A DNA stretch of 64,000 bases from contig CAMXCT020006223.1 in assembly GCA_947184155.2 (NCBI GenBank), positions 1,027,501-1,091,500 of the forward strand, written 5' to 3'. The first letter of the stretch is position 1. Each line of letters begins with the position of its first letter. Positions 7,491 through 61,700 of this stretch are shown in pieces. The notes under the pieces were generated by a model, which saw only the letters and a list, made by a program, of their open reading frames with translations, was not told the origin of the DNA and ran no database searches. Source of the stretch: Cladocopium goreaui. Its lineage: Eukaryota; Sar; Dinophyceae; Suessiales; Symbiodiniaceae. The position numbers and the translations under genes are program-made.

Positions 7491-7970
7491 TGGTTTGGTA
7501 CTTGTGTATAGCTGGGTGCACCTTCCTCTCTTCGCCAGAGGGTCCATAAATGCAGGAACGGAACGCCCCCCCCCCTCCTCTTACCCTTCCTCCCCTTGTC
7601 CTCTTTGAGTCCTTTTTCTGTCCCCCCGTTCTCCCCCTCCACGCCCTCAAGAGTGCGTTTGTTCCGTGTTGTTCCTGCTTCAGCTGTCTCGCTGTTCTCT
7701 TCCTTTTTGGCTGGTTCTTCTCTGCACTGTTGCTCTTCTGCATGAGAGAGTTTGAACCCCGTCCTTCTCTTCCTTTGCTCTGACTGCGTGTTGCTTGCTC
7801 CCTTTGCCTGTTGTCTGGCTTCAATGTCTTTCTGCTTGTTTCCCGCTTGTTTCTTTTGGCTGTCCTTGTTCCTTCTTTTCCATCCGTTTTTCACCGCCCC
7901 TTTGCGGGCTAATGTGTGTGTTTGTGTGCGCGTGCGTGCATGCGTGCGTGCGTCGTTCGTGTGTGTGTGT
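7491..7970 (+). other. Pyrimidine-rich non-coding stretch
   Basis: Rich in C/T (runs such as ccccccccctcctc) and resembling the 3' part of the interiors of the elements to its right, where similar CTTTTCTTTTTCCCC blocks precede the second direct repeat. It ends in a GT-rich tract leading into direct repeat A1. It may be the remnant interior of another element of the same kind. Confidence 0.4.
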
Positions 7971-7974
7971 GTGA

Positions 7975-8092
7975 CACATCTGTACAGATGTAAAACCTCT
8001 ATTAATATATATAAGCGGGGGGTCACCGGGGTCCCGGGGGGGTCGGTGACCAATGAAGACACCTCCCCGGGACCCGTGTAAACGTACCCGCA
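7975..8092 (+). ncRNA. Pseudoknot motif, copy A1
   Basis: 5' hairpin ACATCT-gtac-AGATGT (7976-7992). Closing stem GCGGG (8015-8019) with CCCGC (8087-8091). First pseudoknot helix GGTCACCG (8021-8028) with CGGTGACC (8044-8051). Linker AATGAAGACA (8052-8061). Second helix 8029-8042 with 8062-8075 (14 pairs including one G-U). This family lacks the 3' hairpin and has GTGTAAACGTA in its place. GCGGG/CCCGC is a compensatory change against GCAGG/CCTGC in other families. Confidence 0.85.
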
Positions 8093-9165
8093 GGACTTCG
8101 GTGGTGCACCTGGGCGCAATTATAAGTCGCAGCTGGTGGCCACCGTAGTCCTATATATATATATATATATTTTGTTTTTTTTCATCCTTATCTAAGTAAC
8201 TAACTAATCTAATCTGCATGTCACAGGACTCAGTTCCTGACGGATCATATAATGATCCATTCTTGTCTAGTGTGATTCCTATGGTGACTCCGACATGGTG
8301 CCATAGGGCCAATTGAGGCAACCCCAGTTGGGGTCAATGTCGACTGAATTGATTTCCGAATTCACACATTTTAATTTGGTAATTCGTTTACGTAATGTGC
8401 AACAGCTGGCCTTTCTGTTCTGCACCTTTTCTGAGATGTCCTGCCGTTCCGGCTGTCCCTTGAGATCCTTTGTGAATTGCATTCTTTGCAGAGAGAAGCC
8501 GTGCCGAACTTCGGAAACCTCCTTTTTGCAGCACTTTTACAGCGACATAGCATCATGCCATGACAGAGGACCCAGGCAGGTTCATGACTTTCAGGTGTGG
8601 TCTCTTTTCTTTTGGTTGTTTGGTGAGGTGAAACATGTTGTGCACCTAATTCGATGGAACTTGAAAGCTGTTTTATGCCAATTGGGGCAAGACTTGACCA
8701 CGGTCCCGGTGCAGGGAATAATCGCACGACATCTAGGTAATTAGGAACTGAATCCTGTTTTAATTTTTTGTGGTTTCATCAACTAATCCCCATTGGTCCC
8801 CTATCTCATGCGTTCTTCCCTCCCCAGGTAGGTTGGCTCCGTCGCGTGCTGAGGTGTTTGTAGGTTTTCGCTGTGTCAGGTTGGTTCAGGCGCTTTCGTC
8901 CTCCCCCCCTCCGCTGGTCTTGTTCCGTGTCCGTCGACCCTCCGCTTTTCTTTTTCCCCTTGCCCTTTCAGGGTTTGCCCGCTCCGGGCCAGGTGTGTGG
9001 TGTTGGTGTTCTCTCCTTCCTCTTTTGCGTTCCCCTCTTCGCGTTCTGGTTAAGTAACTCTTCATCTCATCTTCATGGTCATCTCACTTTCACTCCCCCT
9101 TCATCCTCATCTTCACCTCATCTTCCGCGGCACCACCCTGCCTAAGGCAGGGTGTGTGTGTGTGA

Positions 9166-9285
9166 CACATCTGTACAGATGTAAAACCTCTATTAATATA
9201 TATAAGCGGGGGGTCACCGGGGTCCCGGGGGGGTCGGTGACCAATATGAAGACACCTCCCCGGGACCCGTGTAAACGTACCCGCA
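9166..9285 (+). ncRNA. Pseudoknot motif, copy A2
   Basis: Same as A1 except for a 2-base insertion in the linker (CCAATATGAAGACA instead of CCAATGAAGACA). 5' hairpin at 9167-9182; closing CCCGC at 9280-9284. Confidence 0.85.
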
Positions 9286-9468
9286 GGACTTCGGTGGTGC
9301 ACCTGGGCGCAATTATAAGTCGCAGCTGGTGGCCACCGTAGTCCTATATATATATATATATAGTTTTTTTTCATCCTTATCTAAGTAACTAACTAATCTA
9401 ATCTGCATGTCACAGGACTCAGTTCCTGACGGATCATATAATGATCCATTCTTGTCTAGTGTGTGTGT

Positions 9469-9620
9469 AACATCTGGATAGATGTAAAACTTCCTTCCTT
9501 TTTCTTCCCTCTTCTCCCTTCTTAAATAATGCCGGGGGACACAGCATTTCACTGGGACTGTGTCCAACGAAGCTACCAGTGAAATGGGATATCCAGCTTG
9601 GCCAGCTGGACGTACCTGCA
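9469..9620 (+). ncRNA. Pseudoknot motif, copy B1
   Basis: 5' hairpin at 9470-9485. First helix GGACACAG (9537-9544) with CTGTGTCC (9558-9565). Linker AACGAAGCTA (9566-9575). Second helix TTTCACTGG (9547-9555) with CCAGTGAAA (9576-9584). GGGATA, then hairpin TCCAGCT/AGCTGGA (9592-9610), then CGTACCTGCA. The closing stem is damaged here (TGCCGG instead of TGCAGG). Confidence 0.9.
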
Positions 9621-10542
9621 ATTTTTCGTTGCAATTTTGACTGACATGGCACGCGGCCAAGCCTAGAACCGCACAGCTGTATTTTCACTTCACGGTTGTC
9701 GCAATCTGGTACTTAATTTCTGTTATCAACATGGCGATCTAATTTGCATGTTACAGGATTCAGTTCCTGCCGGATCATATAATGATCCATTCTTATCTAG
9801 TGTGATTCCTATGGTGACTCCGACATGGTGCCATAGGGCCAATTGAGGCAACCCTGTTTGGGGTGAGTGTCGACTGACTTGAATTCCGAATTTACACATT
9901 TTAATCTGGTAATTCGTCTAAGTAAAGTGCAACAGTTGGCCTTATCGTTGTGCACCAATTCACAAAGTCTCGCCGATCCGGCTGTCCCAGGGTTCCTCGC
10001 CAACGCAGTTCTTCAACCTTGCAGCCGTGCCGAACATCCAGAAACCTCTTTTTTTCGCAGCAGCTTTTACAGTTACATTACAAGAGACAGAACGCAGGCA
10101 GGTACACGACTTTTAGGTGTGGTCTTCTTTCTTTTGATGGTTCTCTGGTGAGGTGAAACATATTGTGCACCTAATTCGCTGGAACTTGAAAGCCGTTTAT
10201 GCCAATTGGGGCAAGACTTGACCACGGTCCCGGCAAGGGAATAACGCACGACTCGTAGGTAGTTAGGAACTGAATCCAGTTTTGTTGTTTCCTTTTTTCA
10301 CCAACTAGTCCCCATTGGTCCCTAATAACCCTCCTGCTGGCTTCTCCGTAGTGTGTCGTTGGGTTTAGGTGTGTGCTCTGTTTTTGTCAGGTCCGTCTCG
10401 CCGTGTAGGTTGGTTCCGGAGGTCCGTCTGTTCCCCTCCCCCCCCTGCGCTGTTTTTGGCCGTCGGCCCGTCGTGTGTCCGCTTTTTTCTTCCTCTTGCC
10501 TTTCAGGGTTTCCCCGGCTCTGCCGGGTGTGTGTGTGTGTGT

Positions 10543-10694
10543 AACATCTGGATAGATGTAAAACTTCCTTCCTTTTTCTTCCCTCTTCTCCCTTCTTAAA
10601 TAATGCAGGGGGACACAGCATTTCACTGGGACTGTGTCCAACGAAGCTACCAGTGAAATGGGATATCCAGCTTGGCCAGCTGGACGTACCTGCA
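10543..10694 (+). ncRNA. Pseudoknot motif, copy B2
   Basis: Nearly identical to B1, with the intact closing stem TGCAGG (10604-10609) pairing with CCTGCA (10689-10694). Confidence 0.9.
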
Positions 10695-10887
10695 ATTTTT
10701 CGTTGCAATTTTGACTGACATGGCACGCGGCCAAGCCTAGAACCGCACAGCTGTATTTTCACTTCACGGTTGTCGCAATCTGGTACTTAATTTCTGTTAT
10801 CAACATGGCGATCTAATTTGCATGTTACAGGATTCAGTTCCTGCCGGATCATATAATGATCCATTCTTATCTAGTGTGTGTGTGTGG

Positions 10888-11086
10888 ACCATCTGAAAAG
10901 ATGTAAAACTTCTAACTTGCTTGATGATGTGCTTCAATGGTTTTCCAATTTGACATTGCCTTTTTGGCTTTTTCATTTGATTTTCCAACAAAAGCAGGGG
11001 GGCAAGGCCTTCAGTGACTACCTTGCCCAACGAAGCTATGTCACTGAAGGGGAAGCAACTGGGGACGCCCAGTTGTGTACCTGCAG
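10888..11086 (+). ncRNA. Pseudoknot motif, copy C1
   Basis: 5' hairpin CATCT-gaaa-AGATG (10890-10903). Closing stem GCAGG (10994-10998) with CCTGC (11080-11084). First helix GGGCAAGG (11000-11007) with CCTTGCCC (11021-11028). Linker AACGAAGCTAT (11029-11039). Second helix CCTTCAGTGAC (11008-11018) with GTCACTGAAGG (11040-11050). 3' hairpin AACTGGG/CCCAGTT (11057-11074), with GGAAGC on its 5' side and GTGTA on its 3' side. Confidence 0.92.
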
Positions 11087-12163
11087 ATAGTTTTTAACTG
11101 TTGAACACGCTGTCCACTACGTTGTTACAGTTTCAGCGGCAGAATTCTTCTACACTGTTTCTCACGCCTGGTCATTCACCATCTCCTGTCAGGTTTACTG
11201 GAGTGTTTTTTGCACGTACGATGCGTTCCACATCAGTAATTCGATAAGATGTTTCTGAGCAAGTGTGTCACTCATGCCGAATTCCGACAAGGTGGTATGA
11301 GCCCTTCGGGGAAAGCCTTTCTAGGCTAACAATTGACAGTAAAACGATCTCTGAATTTACACTTTTGAATTAGTAATTCGTCTAAGTAAAGTGAAACAGC
11401 CGTTCACTTTTCAGGTTTCACTGTCGGTCGAGTGAGTGTTGAAGCTGCTTGCCGCAGTACTGGGCATCGCCTTTTCCATTTTCACCATGTTCTGCATAGC
11501 TGGAAGCCGCGACAACATCCGTTTTTCAATGATGCCCAAGAGAGTACGGAGCTCGACATTTTCACATGACATGTTACCATGTGAAGGCTACAGGACATGC
11601 TTTCCAGGTTTGGCCACTTCCTTTTTTGGTTTCTCGGTGAGGTTGAAATTGTGCACCTAATTCAGGGGTTGAACACGTAAGCCGTCCAGAGGGTTGTGAC
11701 TTGAAAGCCGAGGGCCTTTGAGCCTTATCACGAATTTTGCATGCGTTGTGGATGCATCATGTCATTAACTAGTTCCCCATGGGTCCCTTTTTCATGTGTT
11801 CTTGCGTTCTCCTCTCTCCAGGTAGGTTTGGCCCGTTGCGTGCTGAGGTTGTTGTAGGTTTTCGCCGTGTCAGGTTGGTTCAGGCGCTTCTGTCCTCCCC
11901 CTCCTCCGCTGGTCTTGTTCCGTTTTCCGTCGGCCTCCGCTTTTCTTTTCCCTTGCCTTTCCAGGGTTGCCCGTTCTGGGCTAGGTTTCATGTGTTGGTG
12001 TTTGCTCTTTCCCTCTTCTTTTGCGTTCCCCTCTTTGCGTCCTGGTTAAGTAACTTTCATCTCATTGTCATCTTCACCTCATCTTCATTTCCCTTCCTCT
12101 TCATTTTCATCTCATTGTCGGGACCTTAATGTCCCACCCTCCTGCGGGAGGGTGTGTGTGTGG

Positions 12164-12362
12164 ACCATCTGAAAAGATGTAAAACTTCTAACTTGCTTGA
12201 TGATGTGCTTCAATGGTTTTCCAATTTGACATTGCCTTTTTGGCTTTTTCATTTGATTTTCCAACAAAAGCAGGGGGGCAAGGCCTTCAGTGACTACCTT
12301 GCCCAACGAAGCTATGTCACTGAAGGGGAAGCAACTGGGGACGCCCAGTTGTGTACCTGCAG
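12164..12362 (+). ncRNA. Pseudoknot motif, copy C2
   Basis: Sequence-identical to C1 over the motif; 5' hairpin at 12165-12180, closing CCTGC at 12356-12360. Confidence 0.92.
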
Positions 12363-12550
12363 ATAGTTTTTAACTGTTGAACACGCTGTCCACTACGTTG
12401 TTACAGTTTCAGCGGCAGAATTCTTCTACACTGTTTCTCACGCCTGGTCATTCACCATCTCCTGTCAGGTTTACTGGAGTGTTTTTTGCACGTACGATGC
12501 GTTCCACATCAGTAATTCGATAAGATGTTTCTGAGCAAGTGTGTGTGTGT

Positions 12551-12688
12551 ACCATCTGTATAGATGTAGAACTTCCTAATTAATATGCAGGGGAGTTTGC
12601 AGAGCGTGTGGCACTCATGTCCTACCACACGCAACGAAGCTGTGGACATGAGTGGGAAGGGAAAGGTGGCCGGTTTCCTGTACCTGCA
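12551..12688 (+). ncRNA. Pseudoknot motif, copy D1
   Basis: 5' hairpin at 12553-12566. Closing stem TGCAGG (12586-12591) with CCTGCA (12683-12688). First helix GCGTGTGG (12604-12611) with CCACACGC (12625-12632). Linker AACGAAGCTGT (12633-12643). Second helix CACTCATGTCC (12612-12622) with GGACATGAGTG (12644-12654). 3' hairpin GGGAAA/TTTCC (about 12659-12678), followed by TGTA. Confidence 0.9.
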
Positions 12689-12701
12689 GCTTAATGTATA
12701 T

Positions 12702-14136
12702 GGGAGCCGTCCGTAAATGCAGATAACAAATTTATGAACTGATGCGTTTACTCTGCTTTGCGCGATTGCCAAAAAACCTGCATCGCGATAGGCTGAGCGA
12801 TTGGTTGGCGATTGGTTATACGGCTACGACTACTACTACTACTACTGCTACTACTACTACTGCTACTACTACTACTACTACTATTACTATTACTACTACT
12901 ACTACTACTACTCTACAACTACCACTACCACTACCACTACCACTACTACTACTACTACTACTACTGCTACTGCTGCTACTACTACTACTACTAACTACTA
13001 CTAACTACTACTAACTACTACTAACTACTACTAACTACTACTAACTACTACTAACTACTACTAACTACTACTATAAGTAGCTCCTGCCGATCACTTTAAG
13101 CGGTTCCACCAACAGAAGCGGGTGTACCCCGGACCGGACGTATTCTTGGGAGGAGCGATCCAGGGCCCTGCGCAACTTAATGCATACCCCTAAAGTTAAA
13201 GGAATGCGTCGAAAACAGAACGGCGCTGGTGATCGGTAAGGAGGATGGTAAGATATCCGAAGCTATTACAAGATATATAGTGGCATTATACTGGCAGTCT
13301 CCACTATTACATTTCGAAAGTTCTGCCTTTGCTTTTTTTCCAAATGACAAAGGTCCCACTGAGGGGTCAGAAATCAGTCAGAAACCAGTCAGAAACCGGC
13401 CAAACGCAACCTCTCTCTCTCTCTCTCCCTTGCCTATTCCCTCACACTCCTACCAGAAATCCTACGCCTACTCCTGATCCAAATTTCCACTACCACTACT
13501 GCTACTGCTACTGCTAGTGCTGCTGGTACTACTGTGAGTTTTCCGGACCGATTCCGGACCGCGCAAGCTTATTTTGCTCCCAAGTTTGAAACAATGCGTT
13601 CACGCATGGATCCTTCCTCTCATTACTAGACTTGCTATTACTCACACCCGCTGCTTTTGCACCACCACTACCACTAGTACACCTAGGAATTTCTGCCTTT
13701 GCTTTTAAATCCAATTGACACGAGTCCCGCTGAAGGGTCAGAAACCAGTCAGAAACCCGTCAGAAACCGGCCAAACGCAACCACCTGTTTCCCTCCCTCC
13801 CTCCCTCCCTCTCTCTCTCTCTCTTTCTCTCTTTCCCTCCCTCTTTGCCCTGCTACTAGAACTCCTACTCCTATTCCTACTCCTACTCCTACTCCTACCC
13901 CTACTACTACTACTACTACTAAATTCAGCAGAAAAGCAATGATATTACAAAGAATTAGAATAAAATGTTTGTCACGATTCATTAGATAATACATAACTTA
14001 TATTTTATGTATATGATCTGAATCTGATCAACGAAGAACAAACCCTTCCGCGATTGCTCACTGTGGTACCGCGGTTGCTACGCGATTGGCTGAGCGATTG
14101 AGGGCTGTCCGGGAAAAGGTATTTTGGACAACCCCC
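12702..14136. mobile_element. 1.4-kb insertion with imperfect TIRs inside D1
   Basis: The boundary is shown by comparison with the uninterrupted copy D2. The ends are GGGAGCCGTCC (12702-12712) and GGACAACCCCC (14126-14136), imperfect inverted repeats (8 of 11 positions), flanked by TATAT on both sides. The interior holds ACT trinucleotide arrays (12826-13075 and 13855-13920) and a duplicated block: 13345-13430 is similar to 13713-13795, with GGTCAGAAACCAGTCAGAAA in both. No transposase ORF. A non-autonomous DNA transposon is the simplest reading. Confidence 0.6.
12826..13075. repeat. (ACT)n trinucleotide array
   Basis: Runs of actact with gct and cac variants, then nine or so ACTACTA heptamers (ctaactacta). 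Long Tyr-, Thr- or Leu-rich frames across it are artefacts. Confidence 0.95.
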
Positions 14137-14360
14137 ATATATATATATATAAGTCCCGCCCCTCGGCGCATATAAGTCGCAGCTGAGGGGGACTTATGTT
14201 TTATCGCTGTTGTTTTATATGGTCAACGTCTACTGTGATCTTTATTATATATATATTACGTATGTAGTTTCATTATATCATTTGATTGCTGGTGTCTTTG
14301 CACGTAAGATGCATTCCAGAACAAAAAATCGCAATGACAGTTCTGATCAAGTGTGTGTGA

Positions 14361-14502
14361 AACATTGCAATAGATGTAAAGCCTGTACCTTGATTTTTCT
14401 TAGTTGCGGGGGGCTGCAGGGAATGTCATAGTTCTGCAGCCAACGAAGACGGCTATGACATTCTGTGATATCGATCCGGGACGCTGGATCGACGTACCTG
14501 CA
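14361..14502 (+). ncRNA. Pseudoknot motif, copy E1
   Basis: Weak 5' hairpin (14362-14377). First helix GGCTGCAG (14412-14419) with CTGCAGCC (14434-14441). Linker AACGAAGACGG (14442-14452). Second helix GAATGTCATAG (14421-14431) with CTATGACATTC (14453-14463). TGTGATA, then 3' hairpin TCGATCC/GGATCGA (14471-14492), then CGTACCTGCA. Confidence 0.9.
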
Positions 14503-15810
14503 TCAATTTTCATGTCAAATTTCTGTGATGGGCAGTGGCTAACCCAAGAACCACCTCGCTGTTTTTCAACAAACATGTCACAGAGGTTTCAATCTCTTTT
14601 TTCATTCTTGCACAGTTGGCGCAATCTGAGACTGCGGTAAACTTCATGTCTAATTTATTTTCCGATATCTGAAATCAAGCTTCACTTAGGCTTTGGCAAC
14701 TTACACTGGCTATGGCGATGGTAACTCCGACAACTTATTTGGCATCTAGTTAGAACTCGAAAGAGAAGGGTCAGCTCCCAACCCCAATTTCTTCTCTGAT
14801 CAGGATTTAATGGAATGTGTGTTGCACGTCCGATGCATTCCACATCACAATTCGATAAGACAAGTCTGAGCAAGTGTGTGACTCATGTCGGATTCGGCAG
14901 GATGACATGAGTCCTTCGGGGAATACCTTTCTAGGTAGGAAATGGGAACCGCCGATCTAACTCTGAATTTACCATTTTCAACCTGGGAATTCGTCCAAGT
15001 AAAGTGGAACAGTTGACCTTTTTTACTCTTCACCCTGTCGTTTGTCGTTGGTTGAACAACTGGCCGCAGTACCGGGCTTCACCTTCTTTCGCTTTTCACC
15101 CTGTCGTTTGTCGCTGGTTGAACAACTGGCCGCAGTACCGGGCTTCAATTCCTTTTGTCAGCCGTGTAAAGTGTAAACCTCCCTTTTCTTCGACGTTGCT
15201 CGAGAGACAGACTGCTGTCATGGCAACATGTTGACGGTCTCAGGCAGGTAATTACATGCCTTCAAGTATGATGACTTTTTTCCTTTTCATTTTTTGGTCC
15301 TTTGTGATGTTCAAGTGTGCACCTAATTCAGCTGGGGATTGCTGACAGCCATTCATAGGGTTGAAATGATTACCCAGGGCCTTGAGCCTTATCACGATCC
15401 TTGCATGAGCATGTGGATGCATCATTTTCATTAACTAGTTCCCCATTGGTCCCCTATCTCATGCATGCTCCCTCTCTAGGTCAGGTTTGGCTCCTTCGCG
15501 TGCCGAGGTAGGTTTGGCTCTCGCCTTGTAGGTTGTGTCAGGCACTTCCGTCCTCCCCCTCCTCTGGTCGGTGTTTGGCCTGTCGTCGGTCCGCTCGCGC
15601 TTTTCCCTTGCCTTTTCAGGGTTTGGCCGCTCTGGGCTAGGCGTGTTGGTGTTGGTGTTTTTCCTTTTTGCCTTTCCCCTTTTACGTTCCCCGTCTCGTG
15701 TCCCGGTTAAGTAGTTTGTTATCTCATCTCCATCTCCCTTTCTTCTCCACCTTCATCTCATTTGTCGGAGCCTGAAATGCCCCGCTGCTGCGTGGCGTGT
15801 GTGTGTGTGA

Positions 15811-15952
15811 AACATTGCAATAGATGTAAAACCTGTACCTTGATTTTTCTTAGTTGCGGGGGGCTGCAGGGAATGTCATAGTTCTGCAGCCAACGAAGAC
15901 GGCTATGACATTCTGTGATATCGATCCGGGACGCTGGATCGACGTACCTGCA
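15811..15952 (+). ncRNA. Pseudoknot motif, copy E2
   Basis: As E1; the motif is the same in sequence, with CCTGCA at 15947-15952. Confidence 0.9.
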
Positions 15953-16214
15953 TCAATTTTCATGTCAAATTTCTGTGATGGGCAGTGGCTAAACCAAGAA
16001 CCACCTCGCTGTTTTTCAACAAACATGTCACAGAGGTTTCAATCTCTTTTTTCATTCTCGCACAGTTGGCGCAATCTGAGACTGCGGTAAACTTCATGTC
16101 TAATTTATTTTCCGATATCTGAAATCAAGCTTCACTTAGGCTTTGGCAACTTACACTGGCTATGGCGATGGTAACCCTGACAACTTATTTGGCATCTATT
16201 TAGAACTCGAAAGG

Positions 16215-16315
16215 CAAAGGTCGGTGCAAGCAGCCCATCCATTCTTGCACCAATGAAGACACTGGATGTGTGCTGGTGAAATCACTTTGGGGTGTCGAGC
16301 TGACGTACCTGCGAA
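16215..16315 (+). ncRNA. Degenerate pseudoknot motif H
   Basis: First helix GGTGCAAG (16223-16230) with CTTGCACC (16244-16251). Linker AATGAAGACA. A short second helix CATCCA (16236-16241) with TGGATG (16263-16268). Then GACGTACCTGC (to about 16312). The closing stem partner is unclear and the 3' hairpin is poor. It is fused onto the truncated end of E2. Confidence 0.55.
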
Positions 16316-16609
16316 GAAACCGTTGATTTCAAGTACTAGAGCCTCTTGATGGTATGCAAGATTTCTGGGTCTAAGACCCTTCAAGCTTTGCGCTGATGTG
16401 GCAGTGAGCAGCAGCGCGATCCTCGAAACTGTTAATCTGACAGATGTCTTGGATAACTGATCTGTCCAGGTAAACCAGTCAAGGGAGACCCGTGGGATGA
16501 GATCCAAACATCAGCAACATTGACAAAAGATAGCAGTGATGCATAAGTCCAGAGCTTGAAACTTGTCTGTGCTGACTGTTCAAGTGTGTAAGTGTGTGTG
16601 TATGTGTAT

Positions 16610-16986
16610 GTATGTATGTGTCTGTGTACCACCTGTATTATAGATGTAAAACTTCCTAATTAATATGCAGGGGAGTTTGCGGAGCGTGTGGCACTCATGT
16701 CCTACCACACGCAACGAAGCTGTGGACATGAGTGGGAAGGGAAAGGTGGCCGGTTTCCTGTACCTGCAGCTTAATGTAAATATAAGTCCCGCCCCTCGGC
16801 GCATATAAGTCGCAGCTGAGGGGGACTTATATTTTATCGCTGTTGTTTTATATGGTCAACGTCTACTGTGATCTTTATTATATATATATATTACGTATGT
16901 AGTTTCATTATATCATTTGATTGCTGGTGTCTTTGCACGTAAGATGCATTCCACAACAAAAATTCGCAATGACAGTTCTGATCAAG
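16610..16986 (+). mobile_element. Direct repeat D2 (uninterrupted copy)
   Basis: Full-length counterpart of D1, ending GTTCTGATCAAG. It is followed by an interior start (TGTGTGACTCATG ... CCTTCGGGGAATACC) that breaks off after about 55 bp, where element F begins in a TG tract. This suggests that F inserted into the interior of the D2 element. Confidence 0.65.
16628..16768 (+). ncRNA. Pseudoknot motif, copy D2
   Basis: As D1, with small differences in the 5' hairpin (ACCACCTGTATTATAGATGT). All helices of the pseudoknot are retained; closing CCTGCA at 16763-16768. Confidence 0.88.
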
Positions 16987-17054
16987 TGTGTGACTCATGC
17001 TGGATTCGTCATGGTGGCATGAACCCTTCGGGGAATACCTTGTGTGTGTGTGTG

Positions 17055-17204
17055 CACCGTTATAGCAAACGGTTCAATTTTTGTCCATCGTGCATGTGTA
17101 ATCTTGATGAAACAGGGGGACCATCCATGTGCTGTGTGCGATGGTCCAACGAAGCGGCCACAGTACATGCGGATATCACGGCTGATCACCGTGACGTATC
17201 TGCC
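17055..17204 (+). ncRNA. Pseudoknot motif, copy F1
   Basis: 5' hairpin ACCGTT/AACGGT (17056-17073), a compensatory replacement of ACATCT/AGATGT. First helix GGACCATC (17118-17125) with GATGGTCC (17140-17147). Linker AACGAAGCGGC (17148-17158). Second helix CATGTGCTGTG (17126-17136) with CACAGTACATG (17159-17169; one G-U). GGATA, then hairpin TCACGG/CCGTGA (17176-17194), then CGTATCTGCC. The closing pair becomes CAGG/TCTG, with a G-U. Confidence 0.9.
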
Positions 17205-18177
17205 TTCGATTGAAATGTATTAAACGGTTGAACAAGCTGTTCTAGTCAGGCTGTTTAGGTACTTCTCGACAGTTTGAAATTTTGATTTTCCAGAAGTCAC
17301 CGCTTCGAATGTGACGTTCTCAACCTGCTTGCGATGACAGGTAACTCAGGACATTAGGCGACGACGGTGACATCCTTCACAATTTCCACTCACCATTACC
17401 CCACTGTGTGTCATGGGTGTTGGACCTGACTTGGTCGCACCGTCGGTTGGTTTCGACCAATCAGAAAGTCATGAGAGGGCATTTTCCCGTATTCAGAGTG
17501 GAGACTGAATCTCCGAAGCTGTATGCACCCAGAGTGCATTTCAAGTGTCATATGACGAAGTCAAGATTTTACACAGTAAAATCAAATCGAAGCAGCCATA
17601 AGGCGAAGAAGCCATAAGGCAGAAGTTCGTCCAATTCGGACAAAGAAGACATAAGTCGAAGTTCCAAACACTACGAGTGCAGCGAACCTTCTATGTGGTC
17701 GGAGTCTCAATGGCATTGTCACTACTTTCTCACTTCACTCGTCATCGTCATTAGGTTCTTTTTAGGCCATGTATTCATTCTCTTAGGCAGGCTCCTTAGG
17801 TCAGATTCACTAGGTCAAAAACTAGGTGCTTTGCAGCTTGCCCCATTACGTATTTTCGGGGTCATTGGCGACTTCAGAGCAAGCAGTTTCGAGAATTCAA
17901 ACTGTCTCATTTTCGGGATTTGGTAAAAAAAAAATACTTCAGAACTCATTCTTCCACGTCGGGACCCAAGTTTTTCGTCTCTTTGGTGTCAGGATGCAAG
18001 AGATATAGAACATGGTCTAATGTTTTGTCTCTCACATCACTACTCATTGTCATCAGGTTCTTTTCAGGCCAGCTATTCTTTTTTTAAGGTAGGCTCCTTA
18101 GGTTAGATTTGTTAGGTACAAATTGGTGATCCGTGGTATGCCCCATATCGGGGCCATTGTGTGTGTGTGTGCGTGTA

Positions 18178-18326
18178 CACCGTTATAGCAAACGGTTCAA
18201 GTTTTGTCCATCGTGCATGTGTAATCTTGATGAAACAGGGGGACCATCCATGTGCTGTGTGCGATGGTCCAACGAAGCGGCCACAGTACATGCGGATATC
18301 ACGGCTGATCACCGTGACGTATCTGC
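18178..18326 (+). ncRNA. Pseudoknot motif, copy F2
   Basis: Near-identical to F1; 5' hairpin at 18179-18196. Confidence 0.9.
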
Positions 18327-18528
18327 CTTCGATTGAAATGTATTAAACGGTTGAACAAGCTGTTCTAGTCAGGCTGTTTAGGTACTTTTCGACAGTTTGA
18401 AATTTTGATTTCCCAGAAGTCACCGCTTCGAATGTGACGTTCTCAACCTGCTTGCGATGACAGGTAACTCAGGACATTAGGCGACGACGGTGACATCCTT
18501 CACAATTTCCACTCACCATTACCCCACT

Positions 18529-19129
18529 GTCTGTGTTTGTGTGTGTGTGTGTGGTTGTCAATGGTTCCAGCCCAATGAAGAGGTTGCATTTGACATTCAT
18601 ATCCGGTGTGCATGCGAACCAAATTGGACAACATGTTTTTTCAGCTGTGCAGTGTTTCTGCATTGTAGTGAGATGCGAGTCCAATTCGGAGTTCTAATTC
18701 AGTTCTTGATCAGAACGCCACCATCAGTTGTATGTGTGCATGCCAACTACCCTACATTCTGGATGACCTAGATCAGGAGTTCCTAAGGAGTGTACAAGGA
18801 AGCAAAAATTGGTCCAGTTACCCCCAAACTGCTGCTGTGTGTGTCTGTGTGCCTTTGGGGTCACTGCAATCCGCAAAGCATGTTTTTCTTTGTTTTTTTG
18901 ACAACTGCGCAGCTTCTATAAGTATACACGCGTGGAACACTTAGGACACTGTAGGTTATCCAGTGCGAATGCATATTACGTTTTTCAAGGTGATAAGAGA
19001 ATGGAGGGGATTCACTACCATGCCAAAGTCTTGCACGATTTTGCAATACCTTGTCAGTTCCGAAATGTGCGATCTGCAGTGCTCAAAATGTCTTCATGAT
19101 ACTGCAAGACGCTGCATAATTCAATTTTG
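18529..19129. other. No recognisable gene
   Basis: GT-rich start (18530-18560), another TGTGTGTCTGTGTG tract near 18836, otherwise unique sequence. CAGCCCAATGAAGAGG near 18567 faintly resembles the linker of the pseudoknot motif, but no helices can be paired. Confidence 0.4.
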
Positions 19130-19540
19130 TTCTTGGGCTGCATTCGACCCAAGGGCATTGCCAAAAGGGTTTGTCAGCCAGTCCTTTTTTTCTCACCGTT
19201 TGTGTTTTTGAACAAGTGATTGCAAACTATTCTTGCATTTTTTTCGTAAGGTGAGGCCCAGGTTATTTTAATGACACCCCTTTGTACGTTGTTTCAACCT
19301 TGTTCTGTCATTGCTTGCACCCCAGTGGAGTAGACAGCACCTGCTGCCATGCGTATTGACACAGCAACGGCGCAGTTTCCCAGCAGCTCAGGGATGACAT
19401 GTGCATAGCATGTAGAAGCAGCTGTGGCAGTACCAGATGAAGTTAACACAAACATATTAGCACTGGTGCAGGCAAGTCTTGGGCAGGACTTAGCATGGCT
19501 ACTTGATTCCCTTCGGCGAAACTCGCCCAGGGCCATTAGG
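19130..19540 (+). repeat. Dispersed repeat, copy 2 (right of array)
   Basis: Counterpart of 7040-7490. Together the two copies bracket the whole pseudoknot-element array in direct orientation. They could be the ends of an older, larger element, or a duplication that predates the array. Confidence 0.55.
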
Positions 19541-20651
19541 TTGTGATGTTGATGTGTGATCCCAACCGCTAAAAACTCTGGAGTTTTGAGCACTTGAGGG
19601 TGATTACGAGGTTCTACATTTCAATATGGTTACCTGACATGAAATGACACCTGTATTCGTTTGCGCCGGCATTGTGCAGCTCGAGGCTTGTTGGCGCCGG
19701 CGGCGGTTGCCCAGTGTTTGGGAAATGGCACTCATCCGTCGCTGCGCAAAAACCTTGCTACTTAGATGCTCCAGAATATGTTCGGCCGGTGGATTTTGGG
19801 CAGGGTTGCTTTCTATCCTGTTTCAAGATGTTTCAAGCGGGCCCCAAGATTTCCGGCGCATCTTAACCCTCCCTTGTCTAGGAGCCTGGCAAAATGATTA
19901 GTTGTGAATGTTTGCTACCCAAGACAAACACCCTCAAAGTCAAAGCGCCGAAATGCAAACACTTTGAGTTTTCACATCCATGACCATATTGGGTTGGGTG
20001 TATAGCAGATCCCAACTTCCAGCTGACAAGATGATCCAATAAATCGCATCATCCCGATTTTTCTGGCAAAAAGTGGCCGTAACGCCAGCATGATTGGATT
20101 TAGACCCATCATGGCGCATAAGCTTGGGGCTTTGCCTGTGTTCTGCATTGTTGTGACCAGGGTTAGACACTTGGCCAATATCTTCAACCCAAGCTCCACA
20201 GCTCCACCGAAGGTGAATCCCGAGACTGGCGAGTCCTATCCTCTGCTACTGGGACAGGAAATGACAGGAACGTTTGGATCAGCGGATTTCAGTGCAGTAT
20301 CCGCTTGATGCTGGAGATGTTTTCTTTTTTCTATTTTTATTTTAACTATGGGTGTCGCTAGACCTTCTCGACGGGGGCATGGAAAGCACGGAAAACATGG
20401 AAGCGAAACGGATTGTAAGGCAACACTATAGGCACCTTTTCTGATCTTTTCTAAGTCAAAAGTGGAGCAAGCCCAGTTGCCCGTGTTGGGATCAACTAGG
20501 TTCTGATCTACTCTTGACTTGCGAACACCATCCACCTCACTTGACATATCCATCATATCCATGTCATATCCTGATATGGTGTTCCACATTGATTTGGTTG
20601 CTGCATGTTGCTGCCATGGTTTCTACTGTCAACCAGCTGGGAGCATTTAAG
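19541..20651 (+). other. No confident gene
   Basis: One + stretch near 20215-20300 has protein-like composition (NPETGESYPLLLGQEMTGTF), but no family is recognised. Possibly upstream, undefined exons of the receptor-like gene that starts at 20652. Confidence 0.3.
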
Positions 20652-20718
20652 GGGCATCACGGTTCCAGCATGGGCTGCTTCCTACGCCACAAGCTACATG
20701 GCTGGCATCTTGATCCAG
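20652..20718 (+). CDS. Receptor-like gene: ligand-binding domain exon 1
   Basis: Encodes GITVPAWAASYATSYMAGIL followed by IQ, which joins in frame to the exon at 20964 (IQ then DLLGINVTYSIVTG). This pattern matches the start of a type 2 periplasmic-binding-protein fold (OpuAC/glycine-betaine-binding-like), as found at the N-terminus of large dinoflagellate surface proteins. The acceptor TTTAAG (ending 20651) is a best guess. A signal-peptide exon should lie upstream but was not identified. The donor is GC (CAG|GC at 20719). The downstream parts of the same gene run to about 53 kb. Confidence 0.6.
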
Positions 20719-20963
20719 GCTGGCAATAGCTTTGTAGAAGGCCTGCTCTGTGGCAGGTGGGATGAGGTAAACAAGCATTAAGAATGTTCTTGAACTGTAC
20801 GACGGATGTGCTCAGTGTGGAAGTAGAAGGTATTCCTACTGCGAAACTGGATGTCTCACGCCCAGCAGTTGGCGCAGAGTGAAGTTGCGAGCGCATCAAA
20901 CTGATGCTTCGCAAGCCCAAACCGTTGCCCAGAAGCATTTCATGCTGCAGTCTGCCATGGCAG
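20719..20963 (+). other. GC-AG intron (245 nt)
   Basis: Donor ATCCAG|GCTGGC, acceptor ATGGCAG|GACCTG. Removing it gives ILIQ-DLLGINVTYS without a frame break. Confidence 0.7.
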
Positions 20964-21113
20964 GACCTGCTGGGCATCAATGTCACGTACAGCATCGTCA
21001 CCGGGCAGGTTGAAGCGTTTTTCTCGGTGGCGGGCTGCTTGACCCCGAACAATTCTTCTGACCGGGGCTGTGGCCCTGAAGGGCCAAGTGTGGCTTGGAT
21101 ATTGAGCAACGAT
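20964..21113 (+). CDS. Receptor-like gene: ligand-binding domain exon 2
   Basis: Encodes DLLGINVTYSIVTGQVEAFF, then SVAGC, an Asn/Ser/Cys-rich stretch, and PSVAWILSNDRQ. In periplasmic-binding-protein-like domains of this kind the GINVT strand is followed by a small-residue/AGC segment and a tryptophan region. The donor is unresolved: no clean GT or GC follows the last conserved residues, and a GA donor near AGCAAC|GATCG is possible. The next matched exon is 4.65 kb downstream. Confidence 0.55.
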
Positions 21114-21369
21114 CGCCAGGGATTGTGTCCTTCTTTTTGGTTCGGTGTGATCCTGCAGGGCTTTAGTTCCGTGAGTAGGATCTTTGTTGCAATTTAGGTG
21201 GCTAGTGTCAGGCAAATGTGTATCTACATGTCAGCACGCCAGTACGCGCATAATTGCCAAACAGCTTCAACGCCTATTGTGGGAGTGGGTATGACTTGAT
21301 GTGTCTTTGTGGGTTCGCTCTTGGATTGGTCAGTGGATTGGTTGATTGATTGGCTGGTTGGTTTGTTTA

Positions 21370-21420
21370 TTCACTGGCTGGTTGGCTGAATGATGGTCGG
21401 AGATGGCCTGGTTCGCCGAG
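21370..21420. repeat. Low-complexity GGTTGATTGATTGG-like tract
   Basis: Imprecise tandem ggttg/gattg/ggctg words between about 21320 and 21410, followed by a CA-rich run at 21538-21600. Intronic. Confidence 0.5.
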
Positions 21421-21890
21421 TGCGCCCTACTGGTGCAAGTATCCTAAAATGCGACCGTGTAGTGTCACTACATCGGGCCGCGGTGAGCGCAAAATTGTTC
21501 ATACTTTTGAGGGTTTGCATTTCTGTATGCTTGTGAACACACACACACAGACGCAGACGCAGGCGCAAGCGCAAACGTATACACGCACACACAGATATAA
21601 TCATATATATCGTAGTACTGCGCATAATATACATCGCAATACGTTTTTACATTTTATACATTTCTAAGGGCCTATGCCTTGCAAGGGAAGGTGGAAAAGG
21701 AGGGGGCGTTGTTGTTAGTTGTTGGGGCCATGTTGAGGCCATGCTGGCTTCCTTCGAAGGAATGGCCCAAAACAGCCAAAATGTCTTGTAAAACATAGGG
21801 TATTCTATCACACGTGGGTACGGCGAAGATGTGTTCAAGCCATGGTGGACCAGTTTTTTCAAGATCACCGTTGCTGAAAGCAACGGATGC

Positions 21891-21922
<32 letters not shown>

Positions 21923-21959
21923 CTGTATATTTTTTTTTTCGCGACATACGGCCTTTGTG

Positions 21960-22123
21960 TGTGGGGGCAACCCCTGTTCCGAAGGGCTTTCATCACATGT
22001 CCAATTTTTAGTTTCAGTTCCCAATTTACAAGCAGGGGCACACGGCATCCTTGACCCACCGTGTGCAACGAAGCTACGGTCTTGGATGGGATATCAGGGC
22101 TGATCACCCTGACGTACCTGCAG
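21960..22123 (+). ncRNA. Pseudoknot motif, copy G (solo)
   Basis: Closing stem GCAGG (22032-22036) with CCTGC (22117-22121). First helix GCACACGG (22038-22045) with CCGTGTGC (22059-22066). Linker AACGAAGCTAC (22067-22077). Second helix CATCCTTGACC (22046-22056) with GGTCTTGGATG (22078-22088; two T-T mismatches). GGGATA, then hairpin TCAGGG/CCCTGA (22094-22112), then CGTACCTGCAG. The 5' hairpin is replaced by GGGGCAACCCC (21963-21973). No partner direct repeat was found nearby. Lies inside the receptor-like gene's intron. Confidence 0.88.
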
Positions 22124-45340: not shown

Positions 45341-45639
45341 TCACGCGCATTCCTTCACACTCCCAACATCATATTCAGTCTTGAGCTCCACAAGCCCGAG
45401 AATAGGCCTGCTAGCTGGCCGCAGACCTGCTTTGGCTGAGGGCGGGCTTCCGTCCCCTCCCATCTCAGGTTCTTTACTGGCTCGCACTGCATTAATTAAG
45501 AAAAATTGGGGGGATCAGGTTTGTAGAGAGCACGGGATGTGATTCTATTATGCTTTCCGAACGGAGGACCTTTATTCCTGCGTGCTAAGCCGACCCCGCC
45601 CACAAATGCCCACGAGTGGCTGAGCAATGGGTGCGCCAG

Positions 45640-49331: not shown

Positions 49332-49358
49332 GGCAGACAATGATGCGCTTCAGGTTGG
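49332..49358 (+). repeat. 27-bp duplication left of LINE
   Basis: Matches 52141-52167 at 25 of 27 positions and ends in CGCTTCAGGTTGG. Interpreted as the target-site duplication of the LINE between them. Confidence 0.7.
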
Positions 49359-55228: not shown

Positions 55229-55806
55229 CTTGCTCAGAACAGTCATTGCGAATTTTGATGTGGAATGCATCTTACGTGCAAAAACACTCCAATTATACCT
55301 GGCAGGAATGGGTCGATGAAAGGACCTGAGAGAAATTCAAAAAGCTACCATCGCCATGGGCCATAGCCATTACTAGATGCAAAGAGTTGGAAGCTGACCG
55401 TTCCCTTCCAACTAAGCCAAATCGTTCCCACCTTGACAGATTGCGAAAACCGTGCAACACGAGAAAATTGAAAACAAGTTGTTTGGAAACGTCATGGTGG
55501 TTCTTGGGTTAGCCACGTCCCATCGCAGAAAATTGTCATGAAAATGAAGCAGGTACGTCGATGAGCGTCCTCATCGATATCACAGGCAACTGATGAGTGT
55601 CTTTGTTAGTGCCGGTCTCATCAGCCCCCCCGGCACCCCCTGCTTGAAATTATATGAAAGAATGCCGACAAAAATCAGGGCTAGAAGTTTAACATCTTTT
55701 CTCGTGCCAGAAGTAAAATGAAGAAGGAACAGGTAAAATCGGAAGTAGAAGTTTTACATCTTTTCAGATGGTTCACACACACGCCCTGCTGACGCAGGGC
55801 TTTTTT
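55229..55806 (-). mobile_element. Pseudoknot direct-repeat copy I (solo, minus strand)
   Basis: On the - strand: hairpin GCCCTGC-gtca-GCAGGGC (55783-55800), a TG tract, the RNA motif, then a tail ending GATGCATTCCACATCA and TTCTGAGCAAG (near 55229) followed by TGTGTG. The tail matches those of D and E, including GATGGTA and CTATGG blocks. Only one direct repeat is seen. The hairpin in front marks it as a right-hand copy. Confidence 0.7.
55549..55771 (-). ncRNA. Pseudoknot motif, copy I
   Basis: Read on -: 5' hairpin CATCT-gaaa-AGATG (55757-55771). Closing GCAGG (55639-55643) with CCTGC (55549-55553). First helix GGTGCCGG (55630-55637) with CCGGCACT (55608-55615; one G-U). Linker AACAAAGACA (55598-55607). 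Second helix CTGATGAG (55617-55624) with CTCATCAG (55590-55597). 3' hairpin CGATGA/TCATCG (55559-55576), then ACGTACCTGC. AAGATGTAAAACTTCT occurs twice upstream of the closing stem, the second time as AAGATGTTAAACTTCT. Confidence 0.85.
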
Positions 55807-57938: not shown

Positions 57939-58760
57939 TCAAGGTCGGATACTCGAATGAGGGGTGCCCCGATCAGATTCTGTGGGTTGAAGGATTCGAA
58001 TGGTAGGGTTGAGCGGAGGGCCTTTTGGAATGGCGATTAAAGTTAAATTTCCTGGAGTTGGTGAGATTGGGCGGTCAGCTGGTGTGGTGGAAGAGATGGA
58101 TGTTGGGGCGGCATCCACTGCTGACCTAGTATGAACTGAGTGGACTCTGGAAACCACTTCTTCATCTGAATCATCTGAATTGAAGCCTTCATGAGGAACA
58201 TCGGTAATAACCGGTAAAGAGATGGGTCGGGATGCCGACGCATGTACCATAATGTCTCCCGAGCGTTGTTTCTTCTTCGGTTGTGGATCATCAGGGTGGT
58301 TGGATCGTTGTTTTGATCGAACGGGTACAGCAGTTGTTGTCCGGGTCGCCACACGAGGAGTGTCAGGGTCCGGTAAACGTGGACCTGGAGCTGGTGGGGG
58401 GCTAGATTCGGAGACCGGATTGCGGAGTGCTGGGGCAATGGCTGGGTGAACTTCTTCGTCACGTGGACGGCTTGAAATTGAAAGAGGACGAAGATTTGGT
58501 TCAGGGTTCAAAATCATGTGGGTGGGAATGCCCCCATGGGATGCCAATGTTGGTACTGAGGATGAGGATGGCAGAGGAACAAATGTGTGAAGGTTTCGTT
58601 GGGCTGGATTTGATCGCCCGGTACGGGTATAGGGTTCGCCCATTGGGTCATCCCATTCAATTGCCGGTTCAAAAAAGGGAAGAAATCCCGCAAGGCAGTT
58701 CAAGTGCATGATGGCACGAGCGAGATGATGATGAAATTCACGGCTTTGGGTGTGGTCCAT
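57939..58760 (-). CDS. Retroelement ORF4 (273 aa), unknown function
   Basis: Probable start at 58760 (MDHTQSREFHHHLARAIMHL), preceded by TTTCTTCTTCTTTTAG on the coding strand, a good trans-splice acceptor. The N-terminal 60 residues look globular (NCLAGFLPFFEPAIEWDDP). The rest is low-complexity Ser/Pro/Thr with a basic patch (KKKQRSG) and an acidic patch (SDDSDEE). The frame is open upstream into the reverse transcriptase, so a fused product is possible on paper, but the acceptor and the change in composition favour a separate ORF. Confidence 0.5.
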   Translation of the reverse strand: MDHTQSREFHHHLARAIMHLNCLAGFLPFFEPAIEWDDPMGEPYTRTGRSNPAQRNLHTFVPLPSSSSVPTLASHGGIPTHMILNPEPNLRPLSISSRPRDEEVHPAIAPALRNPVSESSPPPAPGPRLPDPDTPRVATRTTTAVPVRSKQRSNHPDDPQPKKKQRSGDIMVHASASRPISLPVITDVPHEGFNSDDSDEEVVSRVHSVHTRSAVDAAPTSISSTTPADRPISPTPGNLTLIAIPKGPPLNPTIRILQPTESDRGTPHSSIRP

Positions 58761-58799
58761 GATGAAACGGAACAGGCAGCGAAGGAAAGCGGAGAAGCG

Positions 58800-61700
58800 A
58801 GTTTGAGCCAGACTAAAAGAAGAAGAAACGAGGAAATTAGAACAACAAACTTCAAAAACCAAAGCAGCAAAGAGAAACATCCGTACACCGTAGACATCAG
58901 ACCGTTTTTGCTCATGCGTCTGAAGGTTCTGATGCTGAATCAAAATCTGAGATGAAATGGTGTGGAGTTCCTCATTGGGAAAACCAGCCAAAGTATACAA
59001 GTGAATTAATTGGCCGAGCCCTTGTCGAACACGAAAGTCGGGAAATGCTCCTTTGACTTTGACAACGATGTGGCAACGAGAACGAAATCCGCTGAGAAGT
59101 ACTTTGGGTGGAGAGGCCGAGAACGGAGACAAGACTTGTGATACGTTGGTGGGGCCTTGATAGATCAGTCCCAATGGTTTTGTTTCCAACATGAAACCGA
59201 GGAATTCCTGATCTGGTTCGGTTTCCAGGATGATGGGTTTTCCATAGAAGCCTTCATCCAGCAGTACTTCATATGGTGGAAGATCTCGAAGTCGCGAATC
59301 ACCAAAGATGAATAAGTGGTGATTGCAAAGAATTTGATTGAAGTTGATGGACCAGATTTGTTCGCTGATGGAGACAACCATGAGGCAGAGTGCTGGAGGT
59401 AGTGGACGGCTGCCCATGGGGCTGCCTCTACACTGTCGAATGCATTTTTGGTTCAGAGCAAACGTCTGCATGTTCAACGCTGACTTGAGTAAATCAGGGA
59501 CATCTTTGATGATGATCTTCCTGGTGACGTTGAGTCTACGGAAGGTGCGGCCCTTGATGATGTCGCCTGGATTGTTAGTCTTTCCTGGATAAACCGAGAA
59601 TACTTCGTTGTCAGAAACATCCATGTGGGGTCAGTGGGGTCTCAGGAAATCCAAGAGCATGAACCATGCACCGATGAAGCGATCTTGATCAATGCTGGTG
59701 AAGAAACCAGCAAGGTCTTGATTGACAAGAATGAGATCTGCGTCAACGGGTGCTGATTTGAGGATGGATAGGAGCGTGTATACATCCCCGGAAGCAAAGT
59801 GATTTGGACATGCCACTGGGAGCAGTTGAAAGATCATTCTGGCGAGGATGTTGAGCATAGGACGAAACGGGGAGTCCACAAAGGAGATGGTGGGTCGGCC
59901 ACTGCGAAATTCTTTCTTCCTTTTTGCCAGGATATAACCAGCTGGCAATTGTCTTCCGTGTCCTACCGCCCAAGGTTAGGGTTTTCCATGTTGTCGATGC
60001 AGAAGATCGACAAGAGATGTGACGATGGATTCAGGATCTTGGGAGACCGGTTCGAAAATGGAGGGATCCTGAAAGGTTTTTTCAATTGCTTGGTAGTATA
60101 AGCACGGGCAGTAAATTCTCAAAGAAGAGGCTTGTTTGTCTTCACAATGGAAGATAGCGCCCTCGAAGGTTTTTTGAAATGAGGTGATGGATGATTTGGT
60201 GATGTGACAAGTGACGTGTTTGGAACGCTCTGTCCAAAGATGTTGGCTGAAATCGGAGATCTCTGAATTTGGCATGGACGGTAGGCAGTTTCGCTTCGTC
60301 CAGCCGTGAAGCCCAAGTCTGAGCTGGTTTTGGCATTCCTTTTTGGAAGGAAATACCTTGTTCAACAAGGAGCCTTCGGCCATGACAGCCAACTCTTCTG
60401 GTACGAGTGAGTGAAGTAGTGAACCTGCTAAGACCCAGTGAGGATCTGATGGATTAAGGGCAGCTGTTTTGAAAGGTTCCCACTTTTTGCAACAACACGT
60501 GGCAGGTTGTGTGGTGGACCAGTCCGCGATGGCCTGCTTGTGATTGCAGAGTTGGTCCAGAACAGCTGCATGTTTGATGAAGACCATCTTGAAAAATGGT
60601 GTGTGGCATGGAACTTGGTATGCAAGAACTTGGAGGTGCCACTTTCGTATGAACTGTTTCAATTGTTGTTGGAGATTGGGAGTGAGGGACAATGGGGCAC
60701 GGAGTGCCGTTGCTCGTGGAGCAGGTTTTCCTTTCCACCATTTGATGGACGTATCGATTGCATGAAGTGACAGGGTTCGGAAGGGCTCCTTTATGTTGTT
60801 TGCCAGACGACGAAGAGCATAGCAAAGGGTGAGACCCCCATCATTGGACCGCAGCATTTTGGTCTGTTCAAATCTGGCTCTCGTGTTGGACCCTAAAGCG
60901 TGGATGATGGTCCAAAGTTCCAGTCGGTTTTGAAACCGTTCTGATGTCAAGATCTGACGAACAAGTTTTGGAGTGAACTTGTGTTTGGCTCGACGCCATA
61001 ACCTGGCCAGACCAAACTGAGCGTTTGTGTTCAAGGCAGGTTTCTTGAGGATGCCTTTCCTGGGGTGAAAGAATTGACAAATGAAGGGGTAGTTGCGTGC
61101 TCTTTCAGTGTATATTGGGATGGGCGCCCAAATATTATACAGGTTGTCATGTTCCCGCCAATAGCGTAGGGCAAGCTCGGCTTGTACAAGTCGTTCATTG
61201 GTGAGTTGAAGATACTTTCTGGAGCGACTGTACTCCCTGTCAAGGGTATGATGCATAGCTGAGCCTATGTAGAAATTGGGCTGCATGTTCACGATGTGGG
61301 TGAAACGGATGTAGACGCTTTGAGACTGGAAAAATGGTTTCGAGAAAAGGTTGTGGGCATGAAGTGTTGATCCCCACAAATGTGTGAGGTCGGTACATCC
61401 TTCCAAAATTGACTTCAGCTTCTGGTTCGGTCGAAGACCATGGATTACCGCAAGCACCATCATACGGGTCTGGATGATGCGAAAGCCTTGAAAAAGATGA
61501 ACGCTGTAAGTCATGGTGAAGGGTGTCAAAATGTAGATGATGAGGATCATCGAATGGAGAATCTGAAGATGGGATTGAAGCACTTTGTGCTTAAGCTTTC
61601 TGCGAAGCCAGGGGGCCAGGGAGCTAGTCAAATATTGGTAAGACTGATAGCCGCTGTCATGGCACGCAGGAGGTTCAACACATCATAATTTTTGCCCATG

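Follow-up and report, generated by a model that had tools for sequence, protein, structure and literature searches.

Penelope-like elements such as Poseidon of Anolis carry hammerhead ribozymes in their pseudo-long terminal repeats (pseudo-LTRs) (PMC11167929), and retrozymes are short non-coding elements with a hammerhead in direct repeats (PMC7229834). In such repeats the hammerhead can cut tandem transcripts to unit length (PMC11167929, PMC7229834). R2Tg binds a pseudoknotted element of its 3' untranslated region (UTR) that is reported to be necessary and sufficient for integration (PMC12222951). Here we describe an RNA motif from a window of 64,000 nucleotides of the dinoflagellate Cladocopium goreaui (assembly GCA_947184155.2, contig CAMXCT020006223.1, positions 1,027,501 to 1,091,500), which contains 15 copies in nine sequence families. 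The motif is supported as a folded functional nucleic acid, and the fold probably either marks the RNA of a retroelement for copying or cuts it to length.

Read 5' to 3', the motif opens with the closing strand GCAGGG and continues with the 8-nt first strand of helix a, a loop of 13-15 nt forming the 5' strand of helix b, and the second strand of helix a (a'). These are followed by a linker AAYRAAG with a few further nucleotides, the second strand of helix b (b'), usually GTGATAT, GGGATAT or GGA, a hairpin in most families, an ACGTA-like strand and the closing strand CCTGC. A blind scan of the window, which looked for two interleaving helices of 8 and 10 bp, recovered both copies of families B, C, D, E and F as well as H, the remaining matches being mostly of low complexity. 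A linker-anchored scan added A1, G and I, together with one unrelated 7/8 match at 45576 on the minus strand, and copy A2, the linker of which has a 2-nt insert, was identified by eye. The scans bear out the places, the nine families and the helix sequences given in the original prediction, while its count of thirteen copies rises to 15.

Helix a is 8 bp long, i.e. position 9 would be a Watson-Crick pair in 1 of 110 copies and a G-U pair in 25 of 110. The loop measures 14 nt in 69, 13 nt in 47 and 15 nt in 2 of the 118 copies that have helix a at 7/8 or better. Helix b had been put at 8-11 bp; duplex predictions give 10-14 bp, frequently with a central bulge, a small mismatch or a small internal loop. 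The linker, predicted as a nearly constant AACGAAG, has the broader consensus AAYRAAG (T in A1 and I, A in H). The 3' hairpin that was predicted to be part of the shared fold occurs in most families and is absent in A, GGCACAAG, GGCCCGTG and GGACATCC. L051 and L111 have identical helices a and b and differing 3' hairpins, which points to an exchange of this hairpin between families. The closing stem is nearly invariant (GCAGG/CCTGC in 95 of 122 copies, G-U in 8, compensatory in 1 and other in 18) and is only weakly supported by sequence variation.

Two patterns, both of which leave out helix a and the 5' strand of b, were used to search the genome that the window belongs to (1.17 Gb in 6202 contigs). 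The linker plus 3'-strand pattern AACGAAG-N18-45-GACGTACCTGC had 1165 exact matches (reversed control 3), and the pattern AATGAAGACA-N14-40-ACGTACCTGC had 98 (control 0). Copies outside the window were found via the linker and the 3' strand or via similarity to D, so the conservation of these two blocks is partly by construction. Of 102 distinct copies from the window and the fetched loci, 94 have a helix a that is complementary at 8/8 positions, 6 one at 7/8 and 2 one at 6/8 (best of seven offsets). Twenty further copies, left out of the permutation test, gave 8/8 in 16, 7/8 in 2, 6/8 in 1 and 4/8 in 1 (L140, decayed). Since A, B, C, E and F are near-identical pairs, the independent evidence is nine families in the window and 29 in the genome sample, the latter derived from the 102 copies, which do not include A2.

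The pairing was tested with one representative for each of the 29 families and 10000 permutations. Helix a forms on average 7.9 of 8 pairs with its own partner as against 4.6 with foreign partners, and the duplex energy of helix b is -18.6 kcal/mol with its own and -6.5 kcal/mol with foreign partners, a better foreign b partner being found in 0 of 29 families. The observed pairing was reached in 0 of 10000 permutations for helix a and likewise in 0 of 10000 for helix b. Covariation was calculated for the 16 families whose loops measure 14 nt, aligned without gaps. Here 97.7% of the helix-a cells are paired, changes on both sides occur in 49 cells (13.0 ± 2.8 in shuffles), and the covariation of 0.991 compares with 0.193 ± 0.041 in shuffled columns and with only 0.05-0.13 when the helix-a partner is slid by 1-3 columns. 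The number of helix-a pair types in the same alignment is not unusual (19 vs 17.0; 119 of 500 shuffles).

It could be argued that the copies are neutrally drifting repeats whose complementarity arose by chance or by inverted duplication. Modules are in fact shuffled between copies, and 7 of 812 foreign helix-a combinations also pair at 8/8. Nevertheless, own partners beat shuffled ones in every permutation for both helices and neither the column-shuffle nor the slid controls reproduce the covariation, which leaves this explanation hardly credible. Because complementarity is kept over 29 families with differing helix sequences, and in helices that were not used for finding the copies, a functional fold is supported. 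This agrees with the original prediction, which had seen helices that differ between families and stay complementary and had taken them for a functional folded RNA or single-stranded DNA and not for neutral drift.

The choice between RNA and DNA was approached through the non-Watson-Crick pairs. For helix a, 71 distinct cores of 122 copies were used (duplicates and copies with helix a below 6/8 dropped), and for helix b 70 of these cores with at least 7 Watson-Crick pairs, helix b being registered by Watson-Crick pairs only before the exceptions were counted. Helix a is nearly all Watson-Crick (551 of 568 cells). In helix b the exceptions are G-T 29 times and A-C 7 times; by family the ratio is 15 to 1 (29 representatives, p=5e-4), with 34 of 319 cells in this family count being neither Watson-Crick, G-T nor A-C, as bulges shift the fixed 11-nt register. 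Since G-U pairs are possible on the given strand alone, RNA of this strand is most likely the functional form. The motif strand is also the strand of the open reading frames (ORFs) in the elements compared (H in the window, L085, L086 and L090/L091, and the reverse transcriptase (RT) matches in C47, C257 and C246).

The arrangement of the two helices can be read in two ways. Helix b takes 10-14 nt of the 13-15-nt loop and 0-1 nt separates helix a from the loop strand, so the geometry is tight for an H-type pseudoknot; alternative hairpins, either a or b but never both at once, would account for the covariation equally well. With nearly the whole loop taken up by helix b, a pseudoknot in which the two helices form together is a putative arrangement. 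Each hairpin is stable alone, with means of -12.2 (a) and -16.1 kcal/mol (b) over the 29 families. This stability, like the almost entirely consumed loop, would suit a bistable switch, the hairpins of which exchange during transcription or on protein binding and so control translation, packaging or the start of reverse transcription. We regard such a switch as quite unlikely: the lengths of helix a and of the loop are held more tightly than a mere switch needs, and the A-rich linker of 9-10 nt has the right length for crossing an 8-bp groove.

The copies sit in direct repeats of about 0.3-0.5 kb behind (GT)n, which flank short elements or elements of 8-13 kb; this setting in (GT)n-bounded terminal repeats of RT elements adds to what the original prediction had seen. 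Five families of the window (A, B, C, E and F) form direct-repeat pairs (98.1-100% identical over 312-413 nt), and the approximately 0.7-0.9 kb between the repeats of the short elements holds no ORF of 150 aa or more. Elements A, B and C and the D repeat follow one another head to tail. In 100 of 102 copies, (GT)n with at least three units occurs no more than 231 nt upstream of helix a; the figure for random segments of the window is 16.9%. An automatic procedure, which misses or misplaces some, picked a stem of 5 bp or more just behind (GT)n in 46 of 66 distinct leaders. Match counts are for the whole genome, and about 100 places were listed for each search. Among the matches listed, hand-picked places with a neighbour on the same contig mostly have spacings of 1.0-1.5 kb or of 6.3-6.7 kb. 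Smaller groups are seen at about 8.0, 10.6-10.9 and 12.6 kb, and a few values fall in between; the spacings 386 and 12233 join different families. Head-to-tail multimers of repeat-internal units are also seen among the matches listed, i.e. three copies 1283 bp apart in C14 (503624-506249), four copies in C97 (45400-49698) and three in C1584 (107970-119925). The short elements resemble retrozymes (PMC7229834) in that a short non-coding unit lies between direct repeats with a small RNA fold, that dimers or multimers occur and that autonomous elements exist beside them. They differ in that Rfam finds no hammerhead, in their repeat-to-repeat spacing of 1.0-1.5 kb and in that circularisation and cleavage of their RNA are hypothetical.

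The genome contains at least 121 matches to the decayed frames that lie upstream of H, with open frames of up to 2275 aa. Among the matches listed, those to the RT in C47, C257 and C246 are flanked by motif copies of one family and one strand, and open RT frames with GIY-YIG-like stretches are found in L085, L086 and L090. The Pfam family RVT_1 matches L078 (E=1.5e-4) and L085 (E=0.0026), which is significant, yet below Pfam's cut-off, and has no match in the decayed window frames. RT motifs A-C are readable, motif C being YVDN in the L078 and L085 frames instead of the usual Y-x-D-D. A homologous stretch VYIRF...FYVGS...E...N is located before the RT in L086, L090 and the window; Pfam's GIY-YIG matches it below the cut-off in L086 (E 0.053 and 0.15), and the stretch has no Pfam match in L090 and the window. 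Searches of PDB sequences with three proteins gave nothing meaningful and no RTs. Several near-full-length RT frames of about 1300 aa have a single in-frame TGA, for which decay, shared ancestry or recoding are possible. A different open RT frame at 49340-52102 on the plus strand (RVT_1 1.7e-11) apparently belongs to a non-LTR element.

With a GIY-YIG-like stretch before the RT, tandem repeats and a (GT)n site, the long elements look Penelope-like. An endonuclease-first arrangement and (CA)n targeting are described for Chlamys/Naiad elements. Poseidon-type elements (PMC11167929) share with the elements described here the tandem or partial-tandem copies, the pseudo-LTRs, the RT (here as sub-cut-off RVT_1 matches) and a small structured RNA in the repeat, and perhaps the GIY-YIG domain, for which our elements have a GIY-YIG-like stretch. 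In contrast to them, our elements have another fold and no hammerhead was found, and the GIY-YIG-like stretch precedes the RT rather than following it.

Rfam 15 at the gathering score gave no matches in the window and in 17 fetched loci, hammerhead included. Nor were there matches in these sequences to the HDV, twister, twister-sister, pistol, hatchet and hairpin ribozymes, which we take to be represented by Rfam models. At up to E=5 over 7900-22700 only mir-297 appeared, far below its cut-off. A description of the fold was not found in the open-access literature searched. The motif was thus rightly predicted to be undescribed and unlike known ribozymes in this range of sources: structured RNA in retroelement ends is a known kind, and this fold appears as one with neither an Rfam match nor a located paper. 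Among IMG/VR viral contigs, 34 loci matched the pattern and none had the fold (helix a 7/8 in one and 4-6/8 in the rest); no relative of the element RT was found there. In the pistol ribozyme the loop of a hairpin pairs with a 3' strand. This likeness is shared by our motif, which differs in its longer helices, a closing strand 5' of the hairpin and the lack of an Rfam match. An HDV-like reading, with CGAA in the linker as the catalytic strand, was rejected because the linker accepts C->T and no P3/P4 can be recognised.

The main rival to a recognition function is a new class of self-cleaving ribozyme that would take the hammerhead's place and cut tandem transcripts to unit length; we consider it possible but rather unlikely. 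The motif sits where hammerheads do, in tandem/pseudo-LTR elements that have short non-coding partners and form head-to-tail multimers; no hammerhead or other Rfam family was detected in the window and 17 fetched loci, and its compact fold with conserved unpaired strands and freely varying helices is typical of small ribozymes. On the other hand, the linker tolerates C->T (the 98 exact AATGAAGACA-type matches) and G->A (H and L036), and the same 100 of 102 copies retain the sequence back to (GT)n, which means that inserted copies rarely start within the motif. Self-cleavage is here a prediction, and even for a Penelope-like element with a hammerhead no RNA-seq reads were detected that stop at the site of cleavage (PMC11167929). 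That one dinoflagellate should hold a ribozyme class with more than 1000 copies in dozens of families, which replaced the hammerhead in processing Penelope-like transcripts, is a rather unlikely scenario. A cleavage site just 5' of helix a, suggested by junctions in I, L048, L112, L118 and D, was withdrawn: the leader of L048 is altered instead, the reading of I and L118 is ambiguous, and clear insertions are found in D and L112 only. As two insertions do not make the case, the site is not marked.

We tentatively favour the explanation that the motif is a cis-acting RNA recognised by the RT particle of the element for target-primed copying. This is suggested by analogy to the R2Tg 3' UTR pseudoknot, (PMC12222951), which is likewise a (here putatively) pseudoknotted RNA of a target-primed retroelement; R2 is another element class and the likeness is by analogy, not by sequence or topology. 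The RT/endonuclease particle would recognise the fold, i.e. helix a with the A-rich linker, helix b and the GAUAU and ACGUACC strands, and would thereby pick out the RNA of elements, whether autonomous or not, to be copied by target priming at (GT)n/(CA)n. If shape and a few conserved unpaired letters are what the particle reads, the helix sequences can drift freely while they stay paired. The motif occurs in short elements that have no long ORFs as well as in long ones with RT and GIY-YIG-like stretches. Clustering gave 29 core (at 80% identity), 46 leader and 46 tail clusters, and the modules recombine: one core is found behind very different leaders, one leader before different cores, and tails are swapped too. 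It looks as if one machinery reads every combination, and the tolerance of the linker mildly favours a scaffold over a catalytic centre. Target-primed reverse transcription at (GT)n is what the flanks would suggest.

Several points weigh against recognition by the RT particle. The motif lies about 180-370 nt from the repeat end (by eye) and not beside the presumed priming site, and the upstream repeat, which has no need of a 3' recognition element, contains it as well. The protein class is weak, the RVT_1 values (1.5e-4/0.0026) and those of GIY-YIG (0.053-0.15, L086 only) being all below the Pfam cut-offs, and RT binding and a role in transposition are what we infer from the above analogy. A further candidate, the motif as the 5' end of a trans-spliced and retroposed mRNA (the leader ends in GCAG|G), was rejected. 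The leader is AT-rich and just moderately pyrimidine-rich, and a spliced leader joined to the linker has one match in the whole genome, by eye without the fold; what we take to be the dinoflagellate spliced-leader sequence itself has 172 matches, which fits a dinoflagellate host.

With at least 29 sequence families of one fold, this single genome holds a natural mutational record of the letters that matter, and the motif is a testable candidate for a hammerhead stand-in in protist Penelope-like elements. It also bears on how one enzyme could mobilise many non-autonomous partners. Should the motif cleave, it would add a ribozyme class; should it bind the RT, it would be the recognition handle of a retroelement sitting at (GT)n.

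Table 2. Positions of motif copies, terminal repeats and associated features in the window.
Feature	Position	Strand	Remarks
RNA motif A1	8015..8091	+	linker-anchored scan; closing stem to closing stem, no 3' hairpin
RNA motif A2	9206..9284	+	by eye; linker AATATGAAG
RNA motif B1	9531..9619	+	blind and linker scans
RNA motif B2	10605..10693	+	blind and linker scans
RNA motif C1	10994..11084	+	blind and linker scans
RNA motif C2	12270..12360	+	blind and linker scans
RNA motif D1	12587..12687	+	blind and linker scans; about 11 extra nt between closing stem and helix a
RNA motif E1	14406..14501	+	blind and linker scans
RNA motif E2	15856..15951	+	blind and linker scans
RNA motif I	16223..16312	+	linker scan; closing stem degenerate, leader lost or altered
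RNA motif D2	16667..16767	+	blind and linker scans
RNA motif F1	17112..17203	+	blind and linker scans
RNA motif F2	18235..18326	+	blind and linker scans
RNA motif G	22032..22121	+	linker scan; two central mismatches in helix b
RNA motif H	55549..55643	-	blind and linker scans; in terminal repeat downstream of decayed RT-coding region
Terminal repeat A-left	7961..8274	+	98.1% to 9152-9463; (GT)n, leader hairpin, motif A1, tail ...AGTGTG
Terminal repeat A-right	9152..9463	+	pair with A-left
Terminal repeat B-left	9459..9804	+	99.7% to 10533-10878
Terminal repeat B-right	10533..10878	+	pair with B-left
Terminal repeat C-left	10876..11268	+	100% to 12152-12544
Terminal repeat C-right	12152..12544	+	pair with C-left
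Terminal repeat D, first part, interrupted	12540..12698	+	95.7% to 16617-16778
Rest of terminal repeat D	14147-14357	+	97.7% to 16780-16992 (second copy)
Terminal repeat E-left, aligned part	14351..14763	+	98.5% to 15801-16213; by eye to about 14875
Terminal repeat E-right	15801..16213	+	pair with E-left; cut short by I
Terminal repeat F-left	17041..17411	+	98.4% to 18164-18534
Terminal repeat F-right	18164..18534	+	pair with F-left
G+C-rich hairpin closing internal region	9134..9154	+	directly before (GT)n of A-right; by eye
Decayed open frames, in-frame stops	57939..61682	-	GIY-YIG-like stretch, then RT motifs; element whose downstream repeat carries H

The design of the G+C-rich hairpin recurs with other letters at 10513-10527, 12135-12154 and, on the minus strand, 55783-55800 (by eye). 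Repeats A and D have a second hairpin with the common apical sequence TATAAGTCGCAGCT (8121-8134, 9314-9327, 14171-14184 and 16804-16817). TATAAGTCGCAGCT has 4 matches as against 0.21 expected, its stems differ by eye and (TA)n adjoins, and the hairpin is perhaps another small covarying element. In the genome, copy L139 (C351:147691-147930; helix a 7/8) lacks the usual leader and is preceded by a sequence that is coding-like by eye. Elsewhere in the window, 159-bp tandem repeats at 24543-25412 are open in several frames, and a long trinucleotide array with strong GC skew extends over 31900-33500.

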